From the NCBI GenBank assembly GCA_016882195.1, contig VGLU01000013.1, positions 1 through 35,443 on the forward strand: DNA of 35,443 nt. The letters are read 5' to 3'. This DNA is from Thermoproteota archaeon (GTDB taxonomy: Archaea > Thermoproteota > Methanomethylicia > Methanomethylicales > Methanomethylicaceae). The notes beneath the pieces were generated by a model that was not told the origin of the DNA, searched no databases, and saw only the letters and a program-made list of their open reading frames with translations. This document shows positions 4,344-32,301 of this stretch, in pieces (the first letter of the stretch is position 1; every line of letters starts with the position of its first letter). The translations under genes were made by a program, and so were the position numbers.

Positions 4344-5233
4344 TAAAGACAACTGTAATAGGCAGCATCCCGGTCGTCGGAGAGGGAACAAACGCCATAA
4401 GAACCGCGGTAAACGACCAGCTGGAGGCCGGAATAGAGGTCATCAGCGACGGACAGACGAGGAAGGACATGGTCGCATACTACGCGGATCACATCCCGGG
4501 ATTCAAGGTCGAGGACGGGAGGACTCAGATTGTGGGGAGGATAAAGCCCCCCGAGGAAACCCCTGTATCCAAGGACCTGATGTTCGCCAAGAATTTGGCA
4601 AAGGGCAGGGCAGAGGTGAAGGCCATAATCACCGGTCCGGTGACCATGGTCTTCTTCTCGGAGCTCAGCCCAACGGCGCCCTACAGGGGGTTCAGGGACG
4701 AGGCGCTCTACAGGGACATGGCGGAGGCGCTGGCAGTGGAGGCGGACCTCATTCAGAAGGAGGGCTTCTTCTACTTCCAGATAGACGAGCCCAGCTTCTC
4801 GATTGGGGCGCCGATGTCGCTTGCCAAGGCGGCAATAGAAAAGACGATCTGGGGGATAAGGGGGACGAAGGCGCTACACGCGTGCGGCAACCTGAAGAGG
4901 ACCTTTGCGGATATCGTAAAGATAGACGGGCTTGATGTGCTCAGCCTCGCCTTCAAGGACTACGTCAGCAACTTTGACACTGTGGAAAGGAGGGTAATTG
5001 AGGACTACTCCAAGAGGCTCGGGGTTGGGTGCGTTAGCTCCTTGGAGAATAAGGTCGAGGATGTCGACACAATCAGGGGAGTGGTGCGGAAGGCGCTGGG
5101 CGTTTACGGTGTGGACAACATAGCGTGGATTCACCCGGACTGCGGGCAGAGAGCACTTGAGAGGGAGGCGGTCAGGTCCAAGCTGAAGAACATGGTACTG
5201 GCTCTGAAGGGCATGGAGGCTGAGCTGAGATGA
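4340..5233 (+). CDS. MetE C-terminal-like methyltransferase, probable corrinoid-dependent methionine synthase
   Basis: The 297 residues correspond to the catalytic (C-terminal) domain of cobalamin-independent methionine synthase, with no N-terminal MetE domain. The zinc site is visible: LHACGNL (His, Cys) and IHPDCGQR (Cys). FQIDEPSFS matches the conserved acidic strand. Archaeal core MetE enzymes of this length take methyl groups from a corrinoid rather than from methylfolate. It overlaps the corrinoid protein gene by 4 bases and the MtrH-like gene by 4 bases, so the corrinoid protein is its likely methyl donor. Homocysteine is the probable acceptor; another thiol such as coenzyme M cannot be excluded from sequence alone. 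The start is GTG. Confidence 0.85.
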   Translation: MIKTTVIGSIPVVGEGTNAIRTAVNDQLEAGIEVISDGQTRKDMVAYYADHIPGFKVEDGRTQIVGRIKPPEETPVSKDLMFAKNLAKGRAEVKAIITGPVTMVFFSELSPTAPYRGFRDEALYRDMAEALAVEADLIQKEGFFYFQIDEPSFSIGAPMSLAKAAIEKTIWGIRGTKALHACGNLKRTFADIVKIDGLDVLSLAFKDYVSNFDTVERRVIEDYSKRLGVGCVSSLENKVEDVDTIRGVVRKALGVYGVDNIAWIHPDCGQRALEREAVRSKLKNMVLALKGMEAELR

Positions 5234-6120
5234 TGGTTAAACCACCGTTTGCGCTGGGCAGTGCAGTCTTCGGGGCAGGGAAGCCCGTGCTGGTTGGAAG
5301 CCTCTTCTACAAGGCGGACAGGAAGGTCCTGGACCACAAGAGAGGGGAGGTAAATAGGAATGTCCTCACGAGGGAACTGAGGGCCGTGGAGATCCTAAAG
5401 GAAAGGGTTGGGCTGGACCACGCCATCGATATTATAGCAGAGACGCCGAAGGCGATGGAGAGCTACCTCGCCATACTGGCGGAATACACCGAGGACCCGC
5501 TGCTGATAGGTGGTCTCAACGAAGAAACGAGGATGGCAGGTTACAGGAAGGCGAAGGAGATGGGGATCCAGGGGAGGTGCGGTGTGAACTCCGTGGCGCC
5601 TGCGACCAGCGAGGAGGAGCTTGTGAGCATTAATGAGAGCAGGATAAAGTTCGCCGTTCTGCAGACGCTGGACCCGTCGGCGGTATACCCTGAAGAGAAG
5701 TTGAGCCTGCTGAAGGGGGGACTGCTGTGCAAGTGCGAAAAGGCGGGTATCGACAGGGCAGTGGTGGACGTGGGGATAATAGACTTCACCAGTGCGTGGC
5801 TGGCGGCGGAGTCCATAAAGAGGATAAAGGCCGAGCTGGGCATCCCGGCGGGGTGCGCGCCCTCCAACGCAGCATACCAGCCGCTGGGCACGGAGAAGAT
5901 CACGAGGAAGAGCGCGAGGTCTATGAACGTGGCGCTGAATACCGTGATCCAGCTGGCCGGGGCGGACTTCATAATCTACGGTCCGCTGAAGGCCTCTACC
6001 TACGTCTTCGAGGCCGCGGCGGTCGTGGAGGGTATAAAGGCCTACGGGGCGAGGCTGGGCGGGGAGAAGATGATGGACAGGAGCCACCCGCTCTTCAAGT
6101 TCCTGCCCAAGCTCATGTAA
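5230..6120 (+). CDS. mtrH: MtrH-like methyl-tetrahydropterin:corrinoid methyltransferase
   Basis: This 296-residue protein matches tetrahydromethanopterin S-methyltransferase subunit H in length and pattern: FGAGKPVLVGSLFYKADRKV at the start, LIGGLNEETRMAGYRKAKEM in the middle, and AGADFIIYGPLKASTYVFE near the end. MtrH moves the methyl group of CH3-H4MPT to a corrinoid. No other Mtr subunits are present here, so this is a soluble, stand-alone version, like the MtgA-type partners of corrinoid proteins. With the two genes before it, it can complete a path from methylated pterin to corrinoid to methionine. Starts at 5230 with an ATGA overlap. Confidence 0.9.
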   Translation: MMVKPPFALGSAVFGAGKPVLVGSLFYKADRKVLDHKRGEVNRNVLTRELRAVEILKERVGLDHAIDIIAETPKAMESYLAILAEYTEDPLLIGGLNEETRMAGYRKAKEMGIQGRCGVNSVAPATSEEELVSINESRIKFAVLQTLDPSAVYPEEKLSLLKGGLLCKCEKAGIDRAVVDVGIIDFTSAWLAAESIKRIKAELGIPAGCAPSNAAYQPLGTEKITRKSARSMNVALNTVIQLAGADFIIYGPLKASTYVFEAAAVVEGIKAYGARLGGEKMMDRSHPLFKFLPKLM

Positions 6121-6171
6121 CGGCAAAGGGTAAATAGAGTAACGCCGAGTATGTCAGCAGGAGGAAGGAAG

Positions 6172-6402
6172 ATGGTCCTTGCGTGTATAATGATCCACTG
6201 CAGGCCAGGGACGGCTCCCGAGGTGCTGAAGCACGTGAAGGCCATGAATAGCGTCAAGAGGGCCTTCGAGACGCTGGGGGCCTACGATGTCGTTGTGGAG
6301 TACGAGTTCCAGAGCCTTGAGAAACTGGGCATTGCGGTGTATGAGATGGTCAAGATTCCTGGGGTAATCTCCACCGAGACGCTGATAGAGACGTTACTGT
6401 GA
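6172..6402 (+). CDS. Stand-alone RAM domain (Lrp/AsnC ligand-binding) protein 1
   Basis: The 76-residue protein is a single RAM domain without a DNA-binding part. The pattern runs from CIMIHCRPGTAPEVLKHV through FETLGAYDVVVEYEF to IPGVISTETLIETLL. Lrp-type RAM domains bind amino acids and form dimers or octamers. The ATG at 6172 has GGAGG 7 bases upstream (6160-6164); a longer frame from 6151 lacks a site. Its place after a probable methionine-forming operon fits a methionine or other amino-acid sensor, but that is inference. Confidence 0.8.
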   Translation: MVLACIMIHCRPGTAPEVLKHVKAMNSVKRAFETLGAYDVVVEYEFQSLEKLGIAVYEMVKIPGVISTETLIETLL

Positions 6403-6412
6403 GGTGTTGTGG

Positions 6413-6637
6413 TTGGTACAGATGTTGGTTTTGATAAATGCCGAGAAGGTTTCTGTCTTCGATGTAGTCAAGAAATTGGGCAAGATCCCCAGCGTGCTGG
6501 AGGCCTTTCCCACCTTTGGTAGGTTCGACGTTGTGGCCTTCTGCAACGTTGAGAAGAGGGATGATATCGGAGTGTTGGTGAAGAAGATAGGGGCCGTGGA
6601 GGGCGTCGTGAAGACCGAGACGCTTGTGGAACTCTGA
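6413..6637 (+). CDS. Stand-alone RAM domain (Lrp/AsnC ligand-binding) protein 2
   Basis: This is a second single RAM domain of 74 residues (MLVLINAEKVSVFDVVKKLG, then FPTFGRFDVVAFCNVE and VEGVVKTETLVEL). It starts 10 bases after the first RAM gene. The TTG at 6413 is chosen because GAGGTG (6401-6406) stands 6 bases before it; an ATG at 6422 is the alternative. Sequence similarity to the first copy is moderate, so the two may form a heteromer or arose by an old duplication. Confidence 0.8.
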   Translation: MVQMLVLINAEKVSVFDVVKKLGKIPSVLEAFPTFGRFDVVAFCNVEKRDDIGVLVKKIGAVEGVVKTETLVEL

Positions 6638-6667
6638 GCCGAGCAGAACTCCTTCCGGTTCAGACTG

Positions 6668-7714
6668 ATGGTACCCATGAAGAAGTTGTATATAGACGGG
6701 CCGGTTTCCGGAGGCATTTTACTCTCCTACAGGTGCGCTGGAGGGTGTCAACATTGCATGTACGCCTGCTCTCCGCGGTGGAGTGAGGACTGGATCCCCA
6801 AGGAGGAGGCGGAGAGGGTTTTAACACTACTGGCCGGCAGGATTCAGGCGAGCTCTTATGGGCGGGACGGGATCGGCATAAACTCCGGGCTCCACTTCAC
6901 GGGAGGGGAGCCGTTTCTGAACTTCGATCTGCTGAAGGAGGTGGTCAGAACGGCGCACGGGCTCGGGATCCCCTCAACCTTTGTTGAGACCAGCTGTTTC
7001 TGGTGCGTGGACGACGAGACCACGAGGAAGAGGCTCGTGGAATTGAAGGATGCGGGACTGAACGGCATACTGGTCAGCGTAAACCCTTTCATACTCGAAA
7101 AGGTGCCCTTTGAACGGACGGAGAGGTGCGCCAGGGTAAGCAAGGAGGTCTTCGGCTGGAACGTGATTATTTATCAGGAATTCTTCTACGACCTCTTCAG
7201 AACGCTCGGCCTCAAGAATGCCCTGCCCTTCGAGGAGTTCTTGAGGAGGGCGGGCCGTGGGGTCTTGCAGTATGTGGAGATGCTTCTCATGGGCAGGGCG
7301 ACCTACACTCTCGGGCACCTGTACAGGAGGTACCCCGCGCGGCAGTTCTTCGGGGAGTCCTGCATGGAGGAGTTGACGAGAGGGTGGCATTTTCACGTGG
7401 ATAACTACTTTAACTACATGGCGGGCTACTGCGGAGGCATCTCCCTAGGCGACGCCAGGGACCTCGATTCACTTCTCCAAGGAATAGACTTGCGGGAAAG
7501 GCCAATCCTTGATGCCCTGGTGACAGACATGGAAAGGCTTTACGAGTTTGGGGTCAAAAGGTTTGGCTACAGGGAGTTGCCTGAGGGCTACATCTCCAAG
7601 TGCCACCTATGCGTTGATGTGAGGAGGCACATCGCAGAGCAGACCGGCGAGTTTAAGGAACTCAGACCGAGAGAATTTTATTACCAAGTCACGAATAAGA
7701 CGCCTGAACGCTAA
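6668..7714 (+). CDS. Radical SAM enzyme of unknown substrate
   Basis: This 348-residue protein has the radical SAM motif SYRCAGGCQHCMYAC (CX3CX2C near residue 23, Tyr after the third Cys) and the SAM-binding LHFTGGEPFLNFDLL. The C-terminal YISKCHLCVDVRRHI adds a CxxC pair that may bind a second cluster. I do not recognise the subfamily. It follows the methyl-transfer operon on the same strand with a 30-base gap, so a role in C1 or cofactor chemistry is possible but unproven. Two ATGs (6668, 6677) compete; neither has a clear ribosome site. Confidence 0.85.
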   Translation: MVPMKKLYIDGPVSGGILLSYRCAGGCQHCMYACSPRWSEDWIPKEEAERVLTLLAGRIQASSYGRDGIGINSGLHFTGGEPFLNFDLLKEVVRTAHGLGIPSTFVETSCFWCVDDETTRKRLVELKDAGLNGILVSVNPFILEKVPFERTERCARVSKEVFGWNVIIYQEFFYDLFRTLGLKNALPFEEFLRRAGRGVLQYVEMLLMGRATYTLGHLYRRYPARQFFGESCMEELTRGWHFHVDNYFNYMAGYCGGISLGDARDLDSLLQGIDLRERPILDALVTDMERLYEFGVKRFGYRELPEGYISKCHLCVDVRRHIAEQTGEFKELRPREFYYQVTNKTPER

Positions 7715-7777
7715 GACAAGACCGTTTTTGATGAAAAGTTCAAGTGTGTCTTTTACCAAAAAGGGATTGGTGGTAAA

Positions 7778-8011
7778 ATGGTAGAAGAGGTTACGAAGAT
7801 GGACGGAGCCGGCAGGGTGGTGATACCCAAATCGATCCGAAAGAAGGCGGGTCTAAAAGGCGATTCTACATTATTGGTGGCAGAGGTGTCGGATGGGCTC
7901 ATCGTCCTGAAGAAGATTGATATTGAGTCGCTTGCCAAGGCGCTTAGGAGGGAACTCAAAGGAGTAGATGTCGAGGCTATTGCCAAGAGGATCGAGGAAG
8001 AGGCAAGTTAA
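7778..8011 (+). CDS. AbrB/SpoVT-type DNA-binding protein, no toxin partner
   Basis: This 77-residue swapped-hairpin protein has the classic core TKMDGAGRVVIPKSIRKKAG, then DSTLLVAEVSDGLIVLKK, and a helical tail. AbrB-type proteins act as transcription regulators or VapB-type antitoxins. No PIN or other toxin gene follows: the next gene, nfo, is on the opposite strand and ends 22 bases downstream. It is therefore either a free-standing regulator or an antitoxin that has lost its partner. Confidence 0.85.
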   Translation: MVEEVTKMDGAGRVVIPKSIRKKAGLKGDSTLLVAEVSDGLIVLKKIDIESLAKALRRELKGVDVEAIAKRIEEEAS

Positions 8012-8032
8012 TGTCTGACCTCAGCAAAAAGC

Positions 8033-8881
8033 TTAGGAGACCAATGGTTCGCCGGCAAGTTCGCAGAGCTTTACAACATTGCCCCTGTCATCCCGCCTCG
8101 AGTCCACCGGAGTTTCCATGATAAGCGGGAGGGAGCGGATCCTCCTCTCTGCCAGTATGAGGCGGAATCCAGCTTCACCTATCATCCCCAGCCCTATGTG
8201 CTCGTGGCGGTCGAGATGGCCCCCAAGATCGCCCTTCGAGTCGTTCAGGTGCACGACCTTCAGCCTGCTCAGGCCGACGACATCATCCATCTGATCCATG
8301 ATCTCACCTATCTTGGTCCTGAGGTCGTACCCGCCCGCGAAGGCATGGCAGGTGTCGAAGCAGAACCCAATCTTCTTGGGATAATCGGTCTTGTCCATTA
8401 TGGCGTGTATGTCCTCGAAGGTCGTGCCCATGCTGTTCTTCTGACCGGCGGTGTTCTCCAGCAGGATCATGCAGTTGGTCTTCACCTCACCGATGGCGGT
8501 GTTGAGTGCTGAGACCAGCCTGGCGCAGCCCTTCTCCTCCCCGCTCCCCAGATGGCTCCCGAGGTGGGTCACCAAGTACGGGATGCCGAGGAGGGTGCAC
8601 CTCAAGAGTTCAGCCTTTAGGGTTTCCACCGACTTTTTGTAAGCTTCATCGTTGGGCGAGGCAAGGTTGGGCAGGTAGGGCATGTGATCAACCACCGGTG
8701 AGATGTCGGTCTTTTTCAGCTTCTCCACAAATAAAGAGACTACGTTCGCAGGTATGTCGGAGAAGGACCACCCCCTCGGGCTCCTTGTGAACAGCTGGAA
8801 GGTGTTGCAGCCGATCGCAACCGCCCTCTCCACGGACTTGTCAATTGAGCCGGCTATAGATACGTGAACGCCTGCCCTCAA
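8033..8881 (-). CDS. nfo: Endonuclease IV (AP endonuclease)
   Basis: The enzyme cuts DNA at abasic sites, using three zinc ions in a TIM barrel. The 282-residue length is normal. Seen in order: GVHVSIAGSI, IGCNTFQLFTRSPRGW, VDHMPYLPNLASP, LVTHLGSHLGSG, ILLENTAGQKNSMGTTFEDI, GFCFDTCHAFAGGYDL, VVHLNDSKGDLGGHLDRHEH, and LIMETPVDS. All zinc-ligand regions (His, Glu, Asp) are intact. The start is TTG at 8881. It stands alone, divergent from no close neighbour and convergent with the orphan AbrB gene. Confidence 0.96.
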   Translation of the reverse strand: MRAGVHVSIAGSIDKSVERAVAIGCNTFQLFTRSPRGWSFSDIPANVVSLFVEKLKKTDISPVVDHMPYLPNLASPNDEAYKKSVETLKAELLRCTLLGIPYLVTHLGSHLGSGEEKGCARLVSALNTAIGEVKTNCMILLENTAGQKNSMGTTFEDIHAIMDKTDYPKKIGFCFDTCHAFAGGYDLRTKIGEIMDQMDDVVGLSRLKVVHLNDSKGDLGGHLDRHEHIGLGMIGEAGFRLILAERRIRSLPLIMETPVDSRRDDRGNVVKLCELAGEPLVS

Positions 8882-21623: not shown

Positions 21624-21851
21624 TTACTCCAGAAGCTTAGGGAATCTGCCCCTCTCCATCCCTACCTCGCTTATTATTGCCCTCACGATACCTGGCTTAA
21701 CATCTCTTCCTGGATGAACGGGCACGATAACTCTCGTTCCTTTTTCATTAACGAGTATGACATGGGAGCCCTTTTGTCTGACTGGTTTGAATCCGATCTT
21801 GGTTAGAGCCTTGATCAGTTTCTTAGGTTCGACCGGCGCTATCTTATGCAA
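21624..21851 (-). CDS. hicA: HicA-type mRNA interferase toxin
   Basis: This 75-residue double-stranded RNA-binding-like toxin has KKLIKALTKIGFKPVRQKGS, then HVILVNEKG with the catalytic His (GSHVIL) and VHPGRDVKPGIVRAII. HicA cuts mRNA. Gene order is antitoxin first (hicB then hicA, 8-base overlap), the reverse of the classic E. coli order but common. Confidence 0.92.
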   Translation of the reverse strand: MHKIAPVEPKKLIKALTKIGFKPVRQKGSHVILVNEKGTRVIVPVHPGRDVKPGIVRAIISEVGMERGRFPKLLE

Positions 21852-22092
21852 CAGCCTTCACTCTTTGGACCCTTATGAACTTCTGCTTTAGGAGTTCATT
21901 CTTCTCCTCTTCGCTGAGGGTCTCAAGATATAGCTCGGCTGCCTCCTTGATGTTGCGTAGGGCTTCCTCGATGGTCTCACCCTGCGTATGACATCCAGGT
22001 AAAGCAGGTATGAACACCACGTATCCGCCGGTCTCGTCCTTGATAATCACGGTATCGAGGTCGTAAACCTTAGATGATGCCAATAGCGCCAC
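21844..22092 (-). CDS. hicB: HicB-type antitoxin
   Basis: This 82-residue partial RNase H-fold antitoxin has DTVIIKDETGGYVVFIPALP, GCHTQGETIEEALRNIKEA and AELYLETL. It has no separate DNA-binding domain in its short C-terminus (NELLKQKFIRVQRVKAVA). The start is GTG at 22092. It overlaps hicA by 8 bases. Confidence 0.9.
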   Translation of the reverse strand: MALLASSKVYDLDTVIIKDETGGYVVFIPALPGCHTQGETIEEALRNIKEAAELYLETLSEEEKNELLKQKFIRVQRVKAVA

Positions 22093-22312: not shown

Positions 22313-22936
22313 TTAAGAGCGCCGTGCCTTCTTTATTAGCCACCAGACAGGAATGCCGAAAACCAAAAGGAATGCCAACGATATTATGAACGACAGTCCA
22401 AGTTCGACCACAGAAAAAGCCTTGAAAAGTGCTGGCACGGCAGACACAACGATGGACGCAATTAACAACGATTCTATAAGCTCCATTAGCGTGGCGCAAA
22501 AGAGCACGGAGATTCCACCGTACGCCAATGCAAATATCCAGATAGGCACTGGGACAAGGGTGTTGGCAACAGAATATACTATACCCAGCAAGATGGGAGC
22601 GAAAAGCCAGCTGAAGTAAAGTGATCTGCCTTTGGCCATTGGCCTCTCGGGCGGGCTGACAGTGGTGCGGGCGGCATTGGACATTGACATCTTGCTGAGC
22701 CATGTCTGGGCGGTGCCTGTAGCCTCGTAGTAGTACTTCTTGTCCTCCCTCCTCCTGGAGACAAGACCCAGCCTCAGCAATGTGGAAAGGTGGGACTCCA
22801 CCGTGCTCCTCGACCGCTGGACGGCATCGGCTATCTCGTCCCCGCTCATGGGCTTCTTGGAGAGCGCCTCAAGTATGGAGTAGCGCGTCCTCTCGCTGAG
22901 TGCGTCCAGTATCTCCCGCACGTCCTCGCCGCTCAT
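22313..22936 (-). CDS. Membrane-anchored ArsR-type winged-helix regulator
   Basis: This 207-residue protein has an N-terminal ArsR-like winged helix (REILDALSERTRYSILEALS, KPMSGDEIADAVQRSRSTVE, SHLSTLLRLGLVSRRRED). About four membrane helices follow (LYFSWLFAPILLGIVYSVA, VPIWIFALAYGGISVLFC, LIASIVVSAVPALF, LSFIISLAFLLVFGIPVWWL) and then a basic end. Archaea have many such one-component membrane regulators; the signal is unknown. A TATA-like GTTTATACG lies about 10-20 bases upstream of the ATG, suggesting a leaderless or nearly leaderless transcript. Confidence 0.85.
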   Translation of the reverse strand: MSGEDVREILDALSERTRYSILEALSKKPMSGDEIADAVQRSRSTVESHLSTLLRLGLVSRRREDKKYYYEATGTAQTWLSKMSMSNAARTTVSPPERPMAKGRSLYFSWLFAPILLGIVYSVANTLVPVPIWIFALAYGGISVLFCATLMELIESLLIASIVVSAVPALFKAFSVVELGLSFIISLAFLLVFGIPVWWLIKKARRS

Positions 22937-23081: not shown

Positions 23082-23708
23082 ATGAACGGGCTGCTGAAGT
23101 GGGGGCTTCTGGCCTTGCTGCTCCTCCTGAGCCTAAGGTTTCCATGGCTCCTGCTACCCTTGGGGCTGTACTTTGCATGGAGGTATGGACTGCTCAGGAG
23201 GTTCAGGAAGGTGGCATTGGATGCGGCGGGCATGGTAGACTTGAGGGGCAGGGTGCTGAGGTGGAACCTGGCGAGCTGCAAGGAGTTGCAGGAGAGGACG
23301 GTGGGGTACAGGTACTTTGTTCCCTGCGAGGACTCGCCCTTTGCACTGCTGAAGGACGGGGCGGGGCATAGGTCCGTTTCTGCGTTCGTGATACAGGACA
23401 CGTCGGGTGCGGCTACTAGCCATAAGAGGGCGGTGGCCGAGGCCGTTCAGTTGCTCTCGGGCGGATCTAACCAGGTTGTGCTGATGCTGATCTTCTCCAA
23501 GGGGGGCGTGGGGAGCAAGATACAGCTGATAAGACCAACCCTCGTCGCGAAGGGCACCGGATACGAATGGATAGGGAGTGAGGTCATGGAGGCGGCGAGG
23601 GTGCTCACCGAGGCGGTACGCTCAAGGTCACCCACCCTGAGGGTGAGGGTGTGCAGGGGTAGGGATATCCTGCGGATCCCCGTGCTGGAAGGGGTTGAGA
23701 TTGGATAG
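23082..23708 (+). CDS. Membrane-anchored protein of the HerA-like/radA operon
   Basis: This 208-residue protein starts with two close hydrophobic helices (LLKWGLLALLLLLSLRFPWL and LLPLGLYFAWRYGLL). A basic stretch and a soluble domain of about 160 residues follow (GYRYFVPCEDSPFALL, VVLMLIFSKGGVGSKIQLI, ARVLTEAVRSRSPTLRVRV). I do not recognise the family. It overlaps the HerA/VirB4-like gene by 8 bases, and VirB4-type ATPases often carry or pair with a separate N-terminal domain at the membrane. It may therefore anchor that ATPase to the membrane; this is inference. Confidence 0.75.
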   Translation: MNGLLKWGLLALLLLLSLRFPWLLLPLGLYFAWRYGLLRRFRKVALDAAGMVDLRGRVLRWNLASCKELQERTVGYRYFVPCEDSPFALLKDGAGHRSVSAFVIQDTSGAATSHKRAVAEAVQLLSGGSNQVVLMLIFSKGGVGSKIQLIRPTLVAKGTGYEWIGSEVMEAARVLTEAVRSRSPTLRVRVCRGRDILRIPVLEGVEIG

Positions 23709-25146
23709 AACGGAGTTCATCGACGAAACATTTGACGGGATCTTCAGGGACGCAGGGAGGGTGCGCGTGGATGGGCTGAGCTTCTCGGGGGACGGTGGGC
23801 AGGGCGTATCGAGGGCGGAGCTGATGAGGGCGTGCATCTGCGGGTCGAACTCTGCGAGGGGCAGGATGGTAATGGAGCTTGTACTGAGGGAGGCTGAGGC
23901 TGGCGAGCGGCACGCGATACTGGATGTTAGGGGGGTATACGCGCCCCTCATGGAGTACATACCGTCGCTGAGGGTGTACAGGGTAGGGAGCCTCGCGACG
24001 GTTAACCCCTTCAAGCCGCCATCCGGAATGGAGGGGGAGGAGTACGCCAAGGTGGCGTCGGCGGCAGTTCAAGGGGTCTACGGGCTCAGCAGGGACGAGA
24101 GGATCTACCTCGGGAGGGCGCTGGAGACGTGCTACAGGGAGGGGACGGCTGAGCCCTCGATTGACGACTTGATGGACAGGCTCCTCAGGATACAGGCCGA
24201 GGTCCAGCCAAAGGAGGGGTACAAGGTGGAGTGCCTCAGGAACGTGCTTTGGGAGATGGAGCGGGGGGCTATGGGAAGGGTGCTGAGGGAGAGGGAGGTT
24301 AAGGTGAAGACGCCCGCGGTATTTGATCTGAGCCCGCTGAGGACGTTCAGGGAGAGGGCCCTTCTGGCGGCTTGTTTGTTGGTGAGGGCTGGAGGGTGGG
24401 CGCCGACGTGCGTGGTGGTGGACCCGGCGGAGTGGGTCATGGGGCATGAGACGGCGTACTCCTTCAACCTGCTGAGGGCTGTGGAGGAGGCGCTGGAGGG
24501 GCTCGAGAGGGCGGGGGTCATGGCTCATTTGTGCGGGGCGAGCCCGTCCCTGCTACCGTGGAACATGGGGGAGAGGGTTACGTCATGTTTGTACTGCGGG
24601 CCGCTCTGGGACAGGGACCTATACCAGATAGAGAGGACCTTCGCGCTGACAAGGGAGGAGGCGAGGGAGGTCAGGCACCTGGGGGAGGAGGCTGCGCTCC
24701 TATGCGTATCGGGGAGGGACAGGCCGGTGTTCGTGAGCCCGCGGCTGTCGCAGTTCAGGGAGGTCTCGGAGGAGGAGATCAAGGAGCACATGAGGACGCT
24801 GGGGGAGGAGCCGGTGGATCTGAAGGCAAAGGCGGGAGCGATGACGACTAGGATGCTCGAGAAGATCTTCAGGGACAGGGGGGCGCTGGTCTACGCAAGG
24901 GAGATGCTGAGGCTTGTGGAGGGAGGGAGGGTGCCGGTGGAGGCTGTGAACGAGCAGAAGAACGTCCTGCTGAGGGCGGTGGTAAAGGGGCTGAGGAGGT
25001 ACTTCCTGATCATGGAGTACGTGGATAATGCGGGGGCGAGGTGGTACAGGCTGACGAAGGTTGGAGAAAGGGCGCTCGCGGAGATGGATGAGAGAACGGG
25101 CGGAGAGATGGAGGAGAAGGAGGATGGAGGGAGGGCGGCTAGATGA
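23701..25146 (+). CDS. HerA/VirB4-like ATPase with degenerate Walker A
   Basis: In this protein of about 481 residues, the segment LMRACICGSNSARGRMVMEL sits where HerA/VirB4/FtsK proteins have the Walker A loop, but the GxxxxGK(S/T) pattern is gone (GSNSARGR). The next part (HAILDVRGVYAPLMEYIPSL, then RVYRVGSLATVNPFKPP) is the typical HerA sequence after the P-loop, and ACLLVRAGGWAPTCVVVDPA may be Walker B. The C-terminus looks like a winged helix (RWYRLTKVGERALAEMDE). It may be structural or bind DNA without turning over ATP. TTG at 23701 is preferred (GGGG six bases before); TTG 23695 is in frame. Coupled to radA through one small gene. Confidence 0.65.
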   Translation: MDRTEFIDETFDGIFRDAGRVRVDGLSFSGDGGQGVSRAELMRACICGSNSARGRMVMELVLREAEAGERHAILDVRGVYAPLMEYIPSLRVYRVGSLATVNPFKPPSGMEGEEYAKVASAAVQGVYGLSRDERIYLGRALETCYREGTAEPSIDDLMDRLLRIQAEVQPKEGYKVECLRNVLWEMERGAMGRVLREREVKVKTPAVFDLSPLRTFRERALLAACLLVRAGGWAPTCVVVDPAEWVMGHETAYSFNLLRAVEEALEGLERAGVMAHLCGASPSLLPWNMGERVTSCLYCGPLWDRDLYQIERTFALTREEAREVRHLGEEAALLCVSGRDRPVFVSPRLSQFREVSEEEIKEHMRTLGEEPVDLKAKAGAMTTRMLEKIFRDRGALVYAREMLRLVEGGRVPVEAVNEQKNVLLRAVVKGLRRYFLIMEYVDNAGARWYRLTKVGERALAEMDERTGGEMEEKEDGGRAAR

Positions 25147-25451
25147 GGGTGAGGCAGGTCTCCGCGAACAGGCTCTTCTGGAGCTTGGGGAGGGGCGAGG
25201 GCGAATGCGTGCTGGGCGTGGAGCTCTTCTGCGACGGCGCCGGGCACGTGAGGAGAGCCATCTTCTCAAGGGGAAAGTGCGGGAGGGAGACAAAAATCTT
25301 CGAGGAGGAGTACGCGGTGGAGGAGTTCCGCGAGATACTGTGGGCGGCGGGGGCTCTGATCTCTCCCGAGGAGGATGGCGAGGGGGGCGTGAGGAGGATG
25401 ATCCTCGAGGCGATGGACAGGTTGAGGAGGGCATACGATGGGCTCGAATGA
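25143..25451 (+). CDS. Small unknown protein between the HerA-like gene and radA
   Basis: This 102-residue protein starts at an ATGA overlap with the HerA-like gene and overlaps radA by 14 bases. It has a beta-rich first half (GECVLGVELFCDGAGHVRRA, FSRGKCGRETKIF) and a helical end (GVRRMILEAMDRLRRAYDGL). I do not recognise it. Its fixed place by translational coupling suggests it works with the HerA-like protein or RadA. Confidence 0.7.
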   Translation: MRVRQVSANRLFWSLGRGEGECVLGVELFCDGAGHVRRAIFSRGKCGRETKIFEEEYAVEEFREILWAAGALISPEEDGEGGVRRMILEAMDRLRRAYDGLE

Positions 25452-26490
25452 GGATGTTCAAGCGAAGGAAAAGAAAAAGGAGGATGGGAGAATGAGTGAG
25501 GACGAGGAAGAGAGTGAAAAAGAGCGTATGGTGGAGGAGGCGGATCTTGAGGACCTTTCTGGGATAGGGCCATCGACGGCGGAGAAGCTTAGGAGGGCGG
25601 GGATAAGCTCGGTTAGGGACCTGGCGGCTATACCGGTGAAGGAGCTGCTGGCGATGAGCGAGCTGGGCGAGGGCAAGGCGGAGGAGGCGACCAAGAGGGC
25701 GAGGGAGGCGGCGCTGCCAAAGGTCTTCACGGCGAGGGAGTACCTGGAGAGGAGGAGGAACATGCCGAGGCTGACCACCGGGACTAAGAATTTGGACGAG
25801 TTGCTGGGCGGGGGGCTTGAGCCAGGGATAACCGAACTCATTGGGGCGTACGGCACGGGGAAGACGCAGATCTGCCTGCAGCTGTGCATGACGGTGCAGC
25901 TGACGAAGAACCGAGGGGGGCTGGATGGGGCTGCCTTTTACGTGGACACCGAGGACACGCTGAAGCCGGAGAGGCTGGAGCAGATAGCAAAGGGCGTAGG
26001 GCTGGAGGACGACAGGGCGCTGGATAAAGTGTTCGGGTTCAGGGCGGTGAACACGGACCACCAGTTCGAGGGGTTAAGGATCGCGCAGGAGTACGTGAGG
26101 GAGAAGGGGGTTAAACTGCTGATCGTGGACTCGCTGACGGCGCACTTTCGGAACGAGTATCCGGGGAGGGAGAACCTTGTTGTGAGGCAGCAGAGGCTCA
26201 ACGCCTTCATGCACCAGCTGCTTAGGATGGCATCGCTTTATGATCTGATCGTCGTCGTCACGAACCAGATACTGGACGTGCCGGAGGTCATACCGGGGGT
26301 GAGGCCCTTCAAGCCGGTTGGAGGGAACGTGGTGGCGCACGGCTCGACCTTCCGGCTGTGGCTGGAGAGGACGAAGGGGAGGACGAGGGTTACCGTGATA
26401 GACTCGCCCAAGCACCCAAGGGGATCGGCGTACGTGGCGCTGACGGAGAAGGGCGTGGAGGATGTGGTCTCGGAGGATTCGGAAAGTTAG
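25438..26490 (+). CDS. radA: RadA recombinase
   Basis: This 350-residue archaeal Rad51/RecA homologue forms filaments on ssDNA for strand exchange. A charged N-terminus precedes a helix-hairpin-helix domain (LEDLSGIGPSTAEKLRRAGI). The ATPase core has Walker A GAYGTGKTQICL, the FYVDTEDTLKPERLEQI strand with the catalytic Glu, Walker B VKLLIVDSLTAHF, and the L2 region ending GGNVVAHGSTFRLWLERTKG. The usual GEFGSGKT is GAYGTGKT and DTEGTF is DTEDTL, mild departures. GAGGAGGG precedes the ATG at 25438. Pieces of its 3' end recur downstream at 28892, 30891, 31834 and perhaps 34911. Confidence 0.95.
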   Translation: MGSNEDVQAKEKKKEDGRMSEDEEESEKERMVEEADLEDLSGIGPSTAEKLRRAGISSVRDLAAIPVKELLAMSELGEGKAEEATKRAREAALPKVFTAREYLERRRNMPRLTTGTKNLDELLGGGLEPGITELIGAYGTGKTQICLQLCMTVQLTKNRGGLDGAAFYVDTEDTLKPERLEQIAKGVGLEDDRALDKVFGFRAVNTDHQFEGLRIAQEYVREKGVKLLIVDSLTAHFRNEYPGRENLVVRQQRLNAFMHQLLRMASLYDLIVVVTNQILDVPEVIPGVRPFKPVGGNVVAHGSTFRLWLERTKGRTRVTVIDSPKHPRGSAYVALTEKGVEDVVSEDSES

Positions 26491-27574: not shown

Positions 27575-27602
27575 TATATATATCGTACAACATTTATTGT
27601 AC
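27575..27602 (+). promoter_or_regulatory. AbiE-like module 1 promoter and operator
   Basis: A TATA box (TATATATAT, 27575-27583) is followed at once by the inverted repeat GTACAA-CATTTA-TTGTAC (27585-27602), three bases before the ATG at 27606. An operator in this place would block a nearly leaderless transcript, fitting self-repression by the HTH antitoxin. Confidence 0.65.
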
Positions 27603-28178: not shown

Positions 28179-28799
28179 GTGTCGTTCTGGCACTCCGAGG
28201 CTGTAGACGCCAGCTGGAAGCTGCTCCAGGAGCTGAGGCAGAGGCACAGCTTCGTGCTGATAGGGGGGTGGGCGGTCTGGCTCTACACCCGGGCGTTGAA
28301 GTCGAAGGACATCGACATGCTGGTGGACTTCGAGGAGCTTTCCAGGATGAGGAGGGACCTCCCCATTGCGAAGAACGACAGGCTGAGGAAGTACGAGTAC
28401 AGGCGCGGCATGGTCGACGTGGACATATACGTCCCCCACTACTCGGACCTGGGGCTACCGGTGGAGTACCTGATGGCAGAGACGCGGATTGTGGAGGGCT
28501 TCAGGGTCCCCGAGCCGGAGCTGCTCCTGATACTGAAGCAGAAGGCGGCGGCGGGGAGGGTGGGGAGCGTCAAGGGTGAGAAGGACCGGATCGACATAAT
28601 GGCACTGCTCGCCAGCGGGGCGGTGGACCTGGGGAAGTACTCGAGGACCTGCAGGGAGAGAGGGCTCGCGGGGCTCCCGGAGAGGCTGGGGAGGATGATC
28701 GAGGAGAGCCGCACCGAGTTCGAGGTCCTGGGGATCCGCGATTTGCGGAAGGTGAAGCTGCTGAAGGCTAGGCTGCTGAGGGAACTGAAGGGGCAATGA
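28179..28799 (+). CDS. AbiEii-like nucleotidyltransferase (module 1 toxin)
   Basis: This 206-residue protein has the nucleotidyltransferase core FVLIGGWAVWLYTRALKSKD, then IDMLVDF (GG motif and DxD-type acid pair), and VDVDIYVPHY with the third acidic residue. The GTG start directly follows the stop of the regulator. AbiEii/MNT-type enzymes modify tRNA or proteins and stop growth when not countered, giving phage defence. The C-terminal helical part (LLKARLLRELKGQ) is unremarkable. A copy of the radA end begins 93 bases downstream. Confidence 0.8.
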   Translation: MSFWHSEAVDASWKLLQELRQRHSFVLIGGWAVWLYTRALKSKDIDMLVDFEELSRMRRDLPIAKNDRLRKYEYRRGMVDVDIYVPHYSDLGLPVEYLMAETRIVEGFRVPEPELLLILKQKAAAGRVGSVKGEKDRIDIMALLASGAVDLGKYSRTCRERGLAGLPERLGRMIEESRTEFEVLGIRDLRKVKLLKARLLRELKGQ

Positions 28800-28891: not shown

Positions 28892-29114
28892 GCTGATGGC
28901 GCACTTCAGGAATGAGTACCCGGGGAGGGAGAACCTGGTGGTGAGGCAGCAGAGGATGACATCGCTGTATGATTTGATCGTTGTGGTGACGAACCAGATG
29001 CTGGATGTGCCCGAAGTAATACCGGTGGCGAAGCCCATGAGGCCGGCGGGAGGGAACGTTGTGGCGCTGACGGAGAAGGGGGTGAAGGACGCGGAGGTGG
29101 AGAGGGAAGATTGA
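28892..29114 (+). pseudogene. Partial radA copy B with two clean in-frame deletions
   Basis: From GCTGATGGCGCACTT onward this matches radA 26133-26490: AHFRNEYPGRENLVVRQQR, then MTSLYDLIVVVTNQMLDVPE, VIPVAKPMRPAGGNVVA and LTEKGVKDAEVERED. Against radA it lacks 30 bases (LNAFMHQLLR) and 102 bases (from HGSTFR to SAYVA). The second joint falls on GTGGCGC, which occurs twice in radA (26332-26338 and 26434-26440). The frame stays open, and with upstream bases an 87-codon ORF from 28851 exists, but the Walker motifs are absent, so no recombinase is made. Confidence 0.9.
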
Positions 29115-29301: not shown

Positions 29302-30369
29302 ATGAGGGCTTGTATGGACGACACCACGTTCAGAGTGCTTGACACCCTGTCGAGGAGTCTGGGCAGGACATTCTCCATCAATGAGCTTACGAAGGAGATG
29401 GTGGAGGAGCACGGAACCGCATACTACGCAAACATCTACGGAAAGCTGCACGCCATGTCAGAGGAAGACTTAATCAAGCTAACGAAGGTAGGCAGGGCCT
29501 CGGTCGTCGCCCTGAACTTTGACAGTTATGCGCTGATCGATCTTCTTGCGGAGGTGGAGCTGAGGAGAAAGCGGAGCCTCCTCAGAGACCGCACGGAGCT
29601 GCAGGCGCTCTTTGCAGACGCAGAGATTCATTGCAGGGACCTCGCGAGTTCCATGATCGCTGTCAGGCCGGAGAGCAACATAAAGCTCAACAGAGCAGAG
29701 CTGTTGCTCCTCCTGCATGGTTCTGGAGAAGACATTGATGCCCGTAAAGGGGCGATGGGGGTGGTGACCGTGGTGCAAAAGCTTCAGGGGACGCACAGCC
29801 TGAAGATAGACTCCCTGGCGCTTAGCAGGGGCGAGTTCTCTCACCTGCTGAGGTCGGAGGAAAGGAATCCGCTGAAGGAGATGCTCTCTGACAAGATAGC
29901 CTTCTTCTCGCCCCAGGCTTTTTGGATGGAGGTCAGGGACGTGCAGGAGGGGGGGCGGGTCGCGTTCGAGCGGGAGGAGACGAACCCGGCAAAGATTGCT
30001 GAGCAGGACATAACATACAACCTTGCGAGGTTCGGCTACAGGGAGTTCGGTCCGGAGGTAAGGCAGGGAAGGAAGATCTGCGTAGAATATATAGTGACCT
30101 CGATCCTTCTGGGGGGCGACATGCGGCGGGTTGAGGCGGTGCCAGTAATCCTGGCAAAGAGCAAGTTCAACCACGGCATCCTTGCCTTCCTCGCCCAGAA
30201 GTACAGGGTTTCGGAGAGGCTGCTGGGTCTTTTGAGGGTGCTGGAGAGGGTCAAGCCCACGGACGAGGCGGAGGCGGCAATTAAGATCTTAGAGTCGTTC
30301 AGAGTGGAGGAGATCAAGGCGGACGAGGACAGCATCAGGAAGAAGATGGTGTTGTACAATGCCACTTGA
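29302..30369 (+). CDS. Winged-helix partner of a nucleotidyltransferase (module 2)
   Basis: This 355-residue protein begins with a winged helix (TFRVLDTLSRSLGRTFSINE, YYANIYGKLHAMSEEDLIKL), a basic linker and a long domain I do not recognise (LNRAELLLLLHGSGEDIDAR, KICVEYIVTSILLGGD, LAQKYRVSERLLGLLRVLER). It overlaps the nucleotidyltransferase gene by 11 bases, so the two form a module built like AbiE but with a different, larger regulator. It may be the antitoxin. ATG 29314 is an alternative start if the palindrome at 29276 is the TATA box. Confidence 0.7.
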   Translation: MRACMDDTTFRVLDTLSRSLGRTFSINELTKEMVEEHGTAYYANIYGKLHAMSEEDLIKLTKVGRASVVALNFDSYALIDLLAEVELRRKRSLLRDRTELQALFADAEIHCRDLASSMIAVRPESNIKLNRAELLLLLHGSGEDIDARKGAMGVVTVVQKLQGTHSLKIDSLALSRGEFSHLLRSEERNPLKEMLSDKIAFFSPQAFWMEVRDVQEGGRVAFEREETNPAKIAEQDITYNLARFGYREFGPEVRQGRKICVEYIVTSILLGGDMRRVEAVPVILAKSKFNHGILAFLAQKYRVSERLLGLLRVLERVKPTDEAEAAIKILESFRVEEIKADEDSIRKKMVLYNAT

Positions 30370-30874: not shown

Positions 30875-30890
30875 GTTTTCTTATTGTGCC

Positions 30891-31052
30891 GTGGTGGCGC
30901 ACGGATCGACGTTTCGGATATGGCTTGAGAGGAGCAAAGGCAGAGCAAGGGCGACGGTGATAGACTCGCCCAAGCACCCCCGAGCATCAGCTTACGTCCT
31001 GCTGACCGAGAAGGGAGTCGAGGATGCAGAGGCAGAGCATGAAGAAGGGTGA
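30891..31052 (+). pseudogene. radA 3'-end copy C
   Basis: 54 codons read VVAHGSTFRIWLERSKGRAR, ATVIDSPKHPRASAYVLLTE and KGVEDAEAEHEEG, matching RadA from residue 298 to its stop, with seven differences I count in the first 46 residues. It starts sharply at GTGGTGGCGCACGG; the 16 bases before it are unlike radA and follow the stop codon of the nucleotidyltransferase gene. The frame is fully open but has no upstream recombinase part. The acidic end differs from the intact RadA end. Confidence 0.92.
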
Positions 31053-31179: not shown

Positions 31180-31398
31180 ATGGTAAACGTGACTGTGAGT
31201 GTGCCGGAGGACCTCAGGAAGAGGATGAGGCGCCTCAAGCACGTGAATTGGAGCGATGCGGCGAGGAGGGCGTTCGAGGAGGAGGTAGAGAGGGAGGAGA
31301 GGCTGGCGGCGGCAGAAACCATCAAGAAGCTCAGGGAGGCAAGCCCTCCGGACTGGAACAGTGCGAAGGAGATACGCAGATGGCGAGACGCGAGGTAG
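31180..31398 (+). CDS. VapB-type antitoxin (ribbon-helix-helix-like)
   Basis: This 72-residue protein has NVTVSVPEDLRKRMRRLKHV as the ribbon-helix start, then WSDAARRAFEEEVEREERLA and a C-terminal KLREASPPDWNSAKEIRRWR, a common toxin-binding tail of archaeal VapB. It overlaps the PIN gene by 19 bases. ATG 31180 is chosen; longer reading upstream has no support. Confidence 0.85.
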   Translation: MVNVTVSVPEDLRKRMRRLKHVNWSDAARRAFEEEVEREERLAAAETIKKLREASPPDWNSAKEIRRWRDAR

Positions 31399-31833: not shown

Positions 31834-31914
31834 TCCAAGCATCCTAGGGCTTCTACATGCGTGGCGCTGGCGGAGAGGGGTGTGGAGGATGTGGAGCCGG
31901 AGAAAGAGGAGTGA
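31834..31914 (+). pseudogene. radA 3'-end copy D
   Basis: The frame KHPRASTC, VALAERGVEDVEPEKEE, stop 31912-31914, matches the end of RadA (KHPRGSAYVALTEKGVEDV) from about residue 325. At the base level GTGGCGCTG, GGAGAGGGG and GTGGAGGATGTGG are close to radA. Weaker likeness reaches back toward the PIN stop at 31802. It is the shortest clear copy. Confidence 0.85.
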
Positions 31915-32275: not shown

Positions 32276-32301
32276 CGCGGTGAATTTTGGGGAGAGACCA
32301 G

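Follow-up and report, generated by a model that had tools for sequence, protein, structure and literature searches.

A second RadA recombinase encoded with a membrane protein and a HerA-like protein lacking Walker A in Thermoproteota

The usual view of archaea credits them with a single RadA recombinase and a set of small paralogues. HerA, a motor of the HerA/FtsK family, carries an N-terminal HAS barrel as a feature of the true enzyme. Filament formation by RadA and RAD51 depends on the oligomerisation motif FxxA (PMC4856416), which is essential for filaments (PMC12409439). In Sulfolobales, DNA import needs CedD, a single chain in which a HerA/VirB4-like ATPase domain is joined to an N-terminal domain and a transmembrane part (PMC11868833). 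In eukaryotes, the Shu complex is defined by a SWIM protein bound to RAD51 paralogues (PMC6316741). The locus considered here is a four-gene operon, called A-B-C-radA2 below, at positions 23,082 to 26,490 of a stretch of 35,443 nucleotides (the window; GCA_016882195.1, contig VGLU01000013.1) from a Thermoproteota archaeon of the family Methanomethylicaceae, whose genome (1.45 Mb, 97% complete) is designated G000. Among the open-licence papers searched, no description of such an operon was found.

The preliminary description, made from the letters alone, had reported overlaps of 8, 4 and 14 bases between the four genes; the coordinates of the reading frames agree, with B starting at 23701, and the 4-base overlap of B and C is ATGA. 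The genes are as follows.

22313..22936, minus strand: divergent ArsR-type winged-helix gene (Pfam HTH_5, 1.2e-9), with a C-terminal half that is hydrophobic (membrane) by hydropathy
23082..23708, plus strand: gene A, 208 aa; N-terminal membrane anchor and an alpha/beta, ferredoxin-like soluble domain
23701..25146 (481 aa) or from 23695 (483 aa), both TTG starts, plus strand: gene B; ATPase fold of HerA/VirB4/CedD type without Walker A, and a C-terminal winged helix
25143..25451, plus strand: gene C, 102 aa; conserved basic core RGKxGRE
25438..26490, plus strand: gene D, radA2, 350 aa; a second RadA, complete in its ATPase core and with an HHH domain

Pfam names only the fourth of the operon proteins (Rad51, 2.5e-69; HHH_5, 1.1e-9); no family was matched by A, B or C of the window. 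The reading put forward here, to which we would give an even chance, is that the operon is a dedicated, probably membrane-tethered homologous-recombination module, in which an insulated recombinase would work on a pseudo-HerA scaffold. Among the observations behind it are a change in the self-assembly surface of the recombinase and the inherited loss of ATPase motifs in B.

The recombinase is not the only RadA of its genome, a point that the preliminary description missed. The other, at G000:C1:179003-179941, shares 49% identity with it. In an unrooted tree of 69 RadA sequences from the class and from other Thermoproteota genomes, made with a short search, a single branch parts 29 operon RadAs from 40 others (SH-aLRT 98, or 99 with the five longest branches removed). 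The operon protein is thus a member of an ancient second clade, here called RadA2, on a branch that predates the class. To call the other side ‘housekeeping RadA’ is a simplification, because that side itself holds two groups. The idea of a sole radA with chance neighbours was dropped on this tree and on the co-occurrence of B with RadA. Scored with family models, the protein passes NCBIfam NF003301 (361 bits against a cut-off of 259), falls under the cut-off of TIGR02236 (334 against 361), and scores 113 bits with the RadB model, for which the cut-off is 172. Three features of RadA2 matter for what follows; the pocket position is given in what we take to be the numbering of human RAD51.

25723..25734, plus strand: polymerisation motif VFTA, in place of FxxA
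25843..25866, plus strand: intact Walker A, GAYGTGKT
26038..26040, plus strand: Phe replacing the small Ala of the pocket (human RAD51 A192), the residue that accepts FxxA in other RadAs

The catalytic machinery is kept throughout the clade: the Walker A Lys, the Glu of DTE, the Walker B Asp, the L1 Arg and the L2 Gly are present in 29/29 operon RadAs, and one Gln position varies in seven. With its HHH domain, Rad51 core and catalytic motifs intact, RadA2 is predicted to be competent for strand exchange. The interface is another matter. The Phe of FxxA is found in 39 of the 40 other RadAs and in only one of the 29 operon RadAs, which have Val (17), Ile (4), Ala (3), Leu (3) or Tyr (1) instead; the pocket position equivalent to Ala192 is Ala in 34 of the 40 others and in 3 of the 29, 12 of which carry Phe. 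A motif gone from large to small, with a pocket gone from small to large, suggests an orthogonal self-interface.

Protein B is the second unusual part. It had been noted from the letters that GSNSARGR stands where a HerA-like protein should have GxxxxGK(S/T), and this is borne out: the P-loop position reads CGSNSARGR (residues 47-55), and GxxxxGK[ST] is absent.

23842..23865, plus strand: degenerate P-loop GSNSARGR of B, placed by profile alignment and AlphaFold model
24412..24432, plus strand: VVVDPAE, the Walker B equivalent of B; the strand and the first Asp are retained, the position of the catalytic Glu is not
24853..25098, plus strand: winged-helix C-terminal domain of B, where the most conserved residues of the protein lie

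In the profile alignment, CGSNSARGR falls opposite GATGGGKS and GTTGSGKS of intact relatives, and VVVDPAE falls opposite the Walker B of active relatives. The AlphaFold models, all of separate single chains, agree: in that of B (pLDDT 81), strand 43-47 runs nearly directly into helix 50-66, and therefore the P-loop itself is missing. The fold is nonetheless that of the motors with which the preliminary description had compared it. Foldseek matches the model to HerA, VirB4 and TrwB structures in the Protein Data Bank (PDB) at E-values of 1e-9 to 1e-6 (best 1.3e-9), and hhalign aligns the profile of B with CedD, CedD-like, VirB4-like and small HerA-like ATPases at 96-99%. Residues 1-34 are disordered in the model and the core begins at residue 43, leaving no N-terminal HAS barrel. 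Searches of solved structures with the sequence profiles of A, B and C gave matches that were weak or at chance level. One of the weak matches to B (E 0.14) was PDB 9s34, ‘Archaeal proteasome activator 1’; it covers the P-loop region and likewise lacks Walker A there, so that this protein is possibly another inactive relative.

The missing Walker A is inherited. A normal Walker A in relatives at this site would have pointed to a local mutation or to an error; not one of the 41 radA- or radB-linked B proteins carries it, and the only GxxxxGK[ST] match among them (L033) lies near the C-terminus, away from the P-loop. Nearly all homologues of B that are not linked to radA or radB do have Walker A, and the HerA of the window genome, missed by the strict pattern, carries QTGRGKS. 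Since linked homologues all lack the motif while unlinked ones have it, B is an inherited pseudo-ATPase, and local mutation or sequencing error was dropped as an explanation. By its motifs, B cannot be a motor on its own. The catalytic Glu of Walker B, lost in the window protein, has acidic counterparts in some deep relatives (DEA in L047, DEAHH in L128), which is the pattern to be expected of a decayed ATPase, as judged from these sequences. Across 16 aligned relatives Gly48 and Arg53 never vary, but conservation is strictest in the C-terminal winged helix, which may bind DNA.

The arrangement is old and steady. A single-sequence search found B in 22 of 41 near relatives, and a profile search in 28 of 40 genomes of the class; in 28/28 of the latter a RadA match lies on the same contig, within about 2 kb. 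Three genomes without B (G031, G036 and G038) have more than one RadA match, and those of G036 fall among the non-operon RadAs. The order A-B-C-radA, with the ArsR-type gene divergent beside A, holds in all of family f1 and recurs in the deeper families f2, f3, f4, f6, f7 and f9. A wide profile of B, run on 397 genomes of the phylum, recovered full or partial A-B-C-radA2 modules in at least six genomes outside the class, from four other families (G228, G213, G271, G203, G299 and G310). The preliminary description had left conservation of the order beside radA to be checked in relatives; it extends further than the class. Because gene order and the missing Walker A recur together across the class, chance association is excluded. 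The ArsR-type gene keeps the same divergent position in most relatives and by that conservation belongs to the unit; in family f6 a uracil-DNA glycosylase (UDG) gene takes its place. Other repair genes adjoin some of the distant modules: in G310 (locus L132) the run reads HerA-like, Mre11-like phosphoesterase, Rad50-like SMC, A, B, C, radA2 and SWIM, and at L128 an Nre repair gene stands two genes 3' of radA2.

Three further arrangements were seen in relatives. G004 has a second copy of the operon, truncated at its 5' side (L048, G004:C37, 5369-7220), in which the C-terminal portion of B is followed by C and an entire radA2. In family f14 (L139 and L142, about 4830-8280) a different membrane protein of 452 aa precedes a HerA-like protein of about 410 aa without Walker A and a RadB-like protein with intact Walker A; this three-gene unit is the same idea as the operon, built from other parts. 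At L144 (7005-7832 and 6016-7029) and L145 (5543-7371) a membrane protein of 256-275 aa adjoins a short HerA-like ATPase of 337-362 aa, with intact Walker A, near a helicase-like gene of about 938 aa.

The small partners are harder to place. The first gene had been credited with two membrane helices; a predicted membrane anchor is there, at 23088..23183 on the plus strand, a hydrophobic hairpin or anchor with a conserved Pro-Trp. Two full helices are not clear, as it is a single hydrophobic stretch of about 30 residues (3-34), broken by the conserved Pro and modelled as a short helical hairpin (pLDDT 78 for the whole of A). Protein C, of about 100 aa, is conserved in the modules examined. Deeper relatives add subunits: the small protein encoded after radA2 has an invariant SWIM signature, CxC...CxH, at ten loci. 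At L047 the next gene is RadB-like (1.5e-13), and in families f3 and f7 (L084, L050) the gene after SWIM resembles RadA (93.5%) and has no Walker A. A RadA-like paralogue is not claimed for all families, because homology of this downstream gene is supported at these loci only.

Considerations of this kind lead to the following picture. RadA2 would bind and hydrolyse ATP and form filaments through its changed motif and pocket; because that interface is changed, it is proposed to assemble with itself without mixing freely with the other RadA. Protein A would anchor the complex at the membrane. Protein B, its ATP binding lost, would serve as a fixed scaffold (ring, half-ring or dimer) offering a DNA-binding winged helix; together with C, and in deeper lineages with the SWIM and RadA/RadB-like proteins, it may act as a recombination mediator, loading RadA2 on resected DNA ends or positioning it there. 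Regulation of the whole may fall to the divergent, membrane-associated ArsR-type protein. The gene architecture and the motif changes are observed; from them we infer that the proteins form a complex, that it is tethered to the membrane, that B binds DNA, that RadA2 is insulated from RadA and that the module has a mediator role. The preliminary description had proposed a membrane-linked complex feeding RadA, with an ATPase that no longer works. The HerA/VirB4 fold, the loss of Walker A, the membrane-linked partner and the firm linkage to RadA all stand; an import pump of CedA/CedB type is not supported, and the RadA concerned is the second paralogue.

Several observations weigh against a dedicated recombination module. 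Seven genomes of the class without B (G003, G005, G006, G010, G011, G019 and G025) have a single RadA match, and the module is therefore dispensable. The soluble ferredoxin-like domain of A has no specific structural match, and C has no known fold and no match in Pfam or PDB. The SWIM proteins match Pfam below threshold only, and the window operon has neither a SWIM gene nor a RadA/RadB-like gene; it has lost them or never had them.

A second perspective supposes that the module recombines incoming DNA. In this account a DNA-exchange apparatus of Ced or pilus type has A and B at its membrane pore, where they hold the entering strand and pass it to RadA2, while an active CedD-like ATPase encoded elsewhere supplies the power. 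This is the main rival, possible though doubtful. B aligns with CedD-like ATPases (hhalign 98.8%), A is membrane-anchored, a CedD-like ATPase is encoded in the window genome next to a T2SSE-type secretion ATPase and two more proteins, and in Sulfolobales imported DNA needs recombination (PMC11868833). However, no CedA-, VirB6- or pilin-like gene was seen in the module, A does not resemble the N-terminal regions of CedB or CedD (profile comparison below 1%, and no sequence match), and the neighbouring genes serve DNA repair (Mre11-Rad50, UDG, Nre) and not transport. A simpler reading, import machinery of CedA/CedB type, is not supported: the motifs of B rule out a stand-alone motor, A is unlike the Ced N-terminal regions, and the CedD-like ATPase with Walker A sits elsewhere. 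The NCBIfam CedD and CedB models do not match window B and reach four relatives at 0.023 at best; membership of CedB/CedD was dropped on motif, architecture and model scores. The CedD-like ATPase itself belongs to L098 (G000:C4, 5058-10539), has the Walker A GATGGGKS, and scores 197 bits with the CedD model, under the cut-off of 600; the locus is a candidate pilus or DNA-exchange locus of the window genome.

Pseudo-ATPases often pair with active paralogues, and B might accordingly be a regulatory subunit that joins an active ATPase of the HerA family, either HerA or the CedD-like protein, in mixed rings; it would tune end resection, and RadA2 would be loaded at that same step. The module of L132 lies directly 3' of HerA-Mre11-Rad50, and in the window genome a HerA-Mre11-Rad50 cluster with a gene in the NurA position is intact elsewhere (L096; Mre11, Rad50 and NurA are putative names given from sequence). 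Yet that adjacency occurs at one locus only, and how B would pack in a ring is uncertain, because it has no HAS-like barrel and its P-loop geometry is lost; mixed rings are unlikely. A different role for the recombinase, as an anti-recombinase or modulator that caps or prunes filaments of the other RadA while A, B and C localise it, would make use of the changed FxxA and pocket, and archaeal RadA paralogues with roles of this type are known (PMC4080772). RadA2 nevertheless retains HHH domain, Walker A and B, L1 and L2, and the way in which motif and pocket have changed together points to self-assembly and away from capping; this role seems quite improbable. Least credible, and very improbable indeed, is an ordinary radA duplicate with decaying passenger genes and no joint function. 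The lost ATPase motifs of B, the partial radA2 copies in the window and the truncated operon of G004 could be read in that way, but A, B and C have open reading frames throughout the class and outside it, in the same order and with invariant residues, and the branch is older than the class. Two further identities were tried and dropped: a defence system, as PADLOC gave no meaningful match for A, B, C or RadA2 of the window, and a plasmid-borne system, as tblastn of a plasmid collection gave no match.

The surroundings of the operon have features of their own. Downstream of radA2, on the same strand, lie three partial copies of its 3' end (28892-29089, 30890-31026 and 31835-31902; 72-80% DNA identity). 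Interleaved with them are toxin-antitoxin-like genes: a helix-turn-helix gene at 27597 with a putative nucleotidyltransferase at 28179, a DUF6036 nucleotidyltransferase at 30359, and an RHH/UPF0175 gene at 31361 with a DUF3368/PIN-like gene at 32287. The pattern resembles the outcome of repeated capture or integration events at the 3' end of radA2; an integrase was not seen. A HicA/HicB toxin-antitoxin pair lies on the minus strand at 21624-22092, upstream of the ArsR-type gene.

The module looks like a dedicated, undescribed recombination machine. Taken further, and very tentatively, many Thermoproteota may keep two recombinase filaments insulated from each other, which would be a prokaryotic counterpart of the division of labour between Rad51 and Dmc1; the second would act at the membrane, on an ATP-blind platform derived from HerA and with helpers of Shu type, and might be reserved for DNA from other cells. 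A complete recombinase that is both ancient and a second copy, and that is tied genetically to a membrane protein and a pseudo-HerA, would mean that prokaryotes, too, divide recombination among specialised recombinases, and the origin of that split would become testable outside eukaryotes. A conserved ATP-blind offshoot of HerA/VirB4 motors raises the question of what role a DNA-motor fold can have when it is unable to burn ATP. The changed FxxA/pocket pair allows a direct biochemical test of filament insulation.

Set beside known systems, RadA2 has the HHH domain, Rad51 core, intact Walker A and B and DNA loops of archaeal RadA, and differs from it in forming its own clade, in the replaced Phe of FxxA and altered pocket, and in its constant place beside A, B and C in one operon. 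Like RadB and aRadC it is a RadA paralogue that likely acts in recombination; unlike them, it keeps the N-terminal HHH domain and the full core, so that the lack of a DNA-binding domain does not describe it. B has the ATPase-core fold of the HerA/FtsK-HerA superfamily, but is without Walker A, the Walker B Glu (in the window protein) and the N-terminal barrel, and has a C-terminal winged helix and linkage to RadA instead. With CedB and CedD of Sulfolobales the module has in common a HerA/VirB4-type ATPase core and membrane association, and several relatives have CedD as their nearest name in NCBIfam; in the module, however, the membrane part is a separate protein that shows no similarity to the Ced N-terminal regions, B lacks Walker A, the linkage is to RadA, and CedA and pilin partners are absent. 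In deeper relatives of the module, a putative SWIM zinc-finger gene next to recombinase genes brings the Shu complex of eukaryotes to mind, as does the RadB-like gene at L047. No homology to that complex was seen beyond the SWIM motif, and the window operon has no SWIM gene. Three parts set the module apart from the Shu complex, namely its full recombinase, its pseudo-HerA and its membrane anchor.

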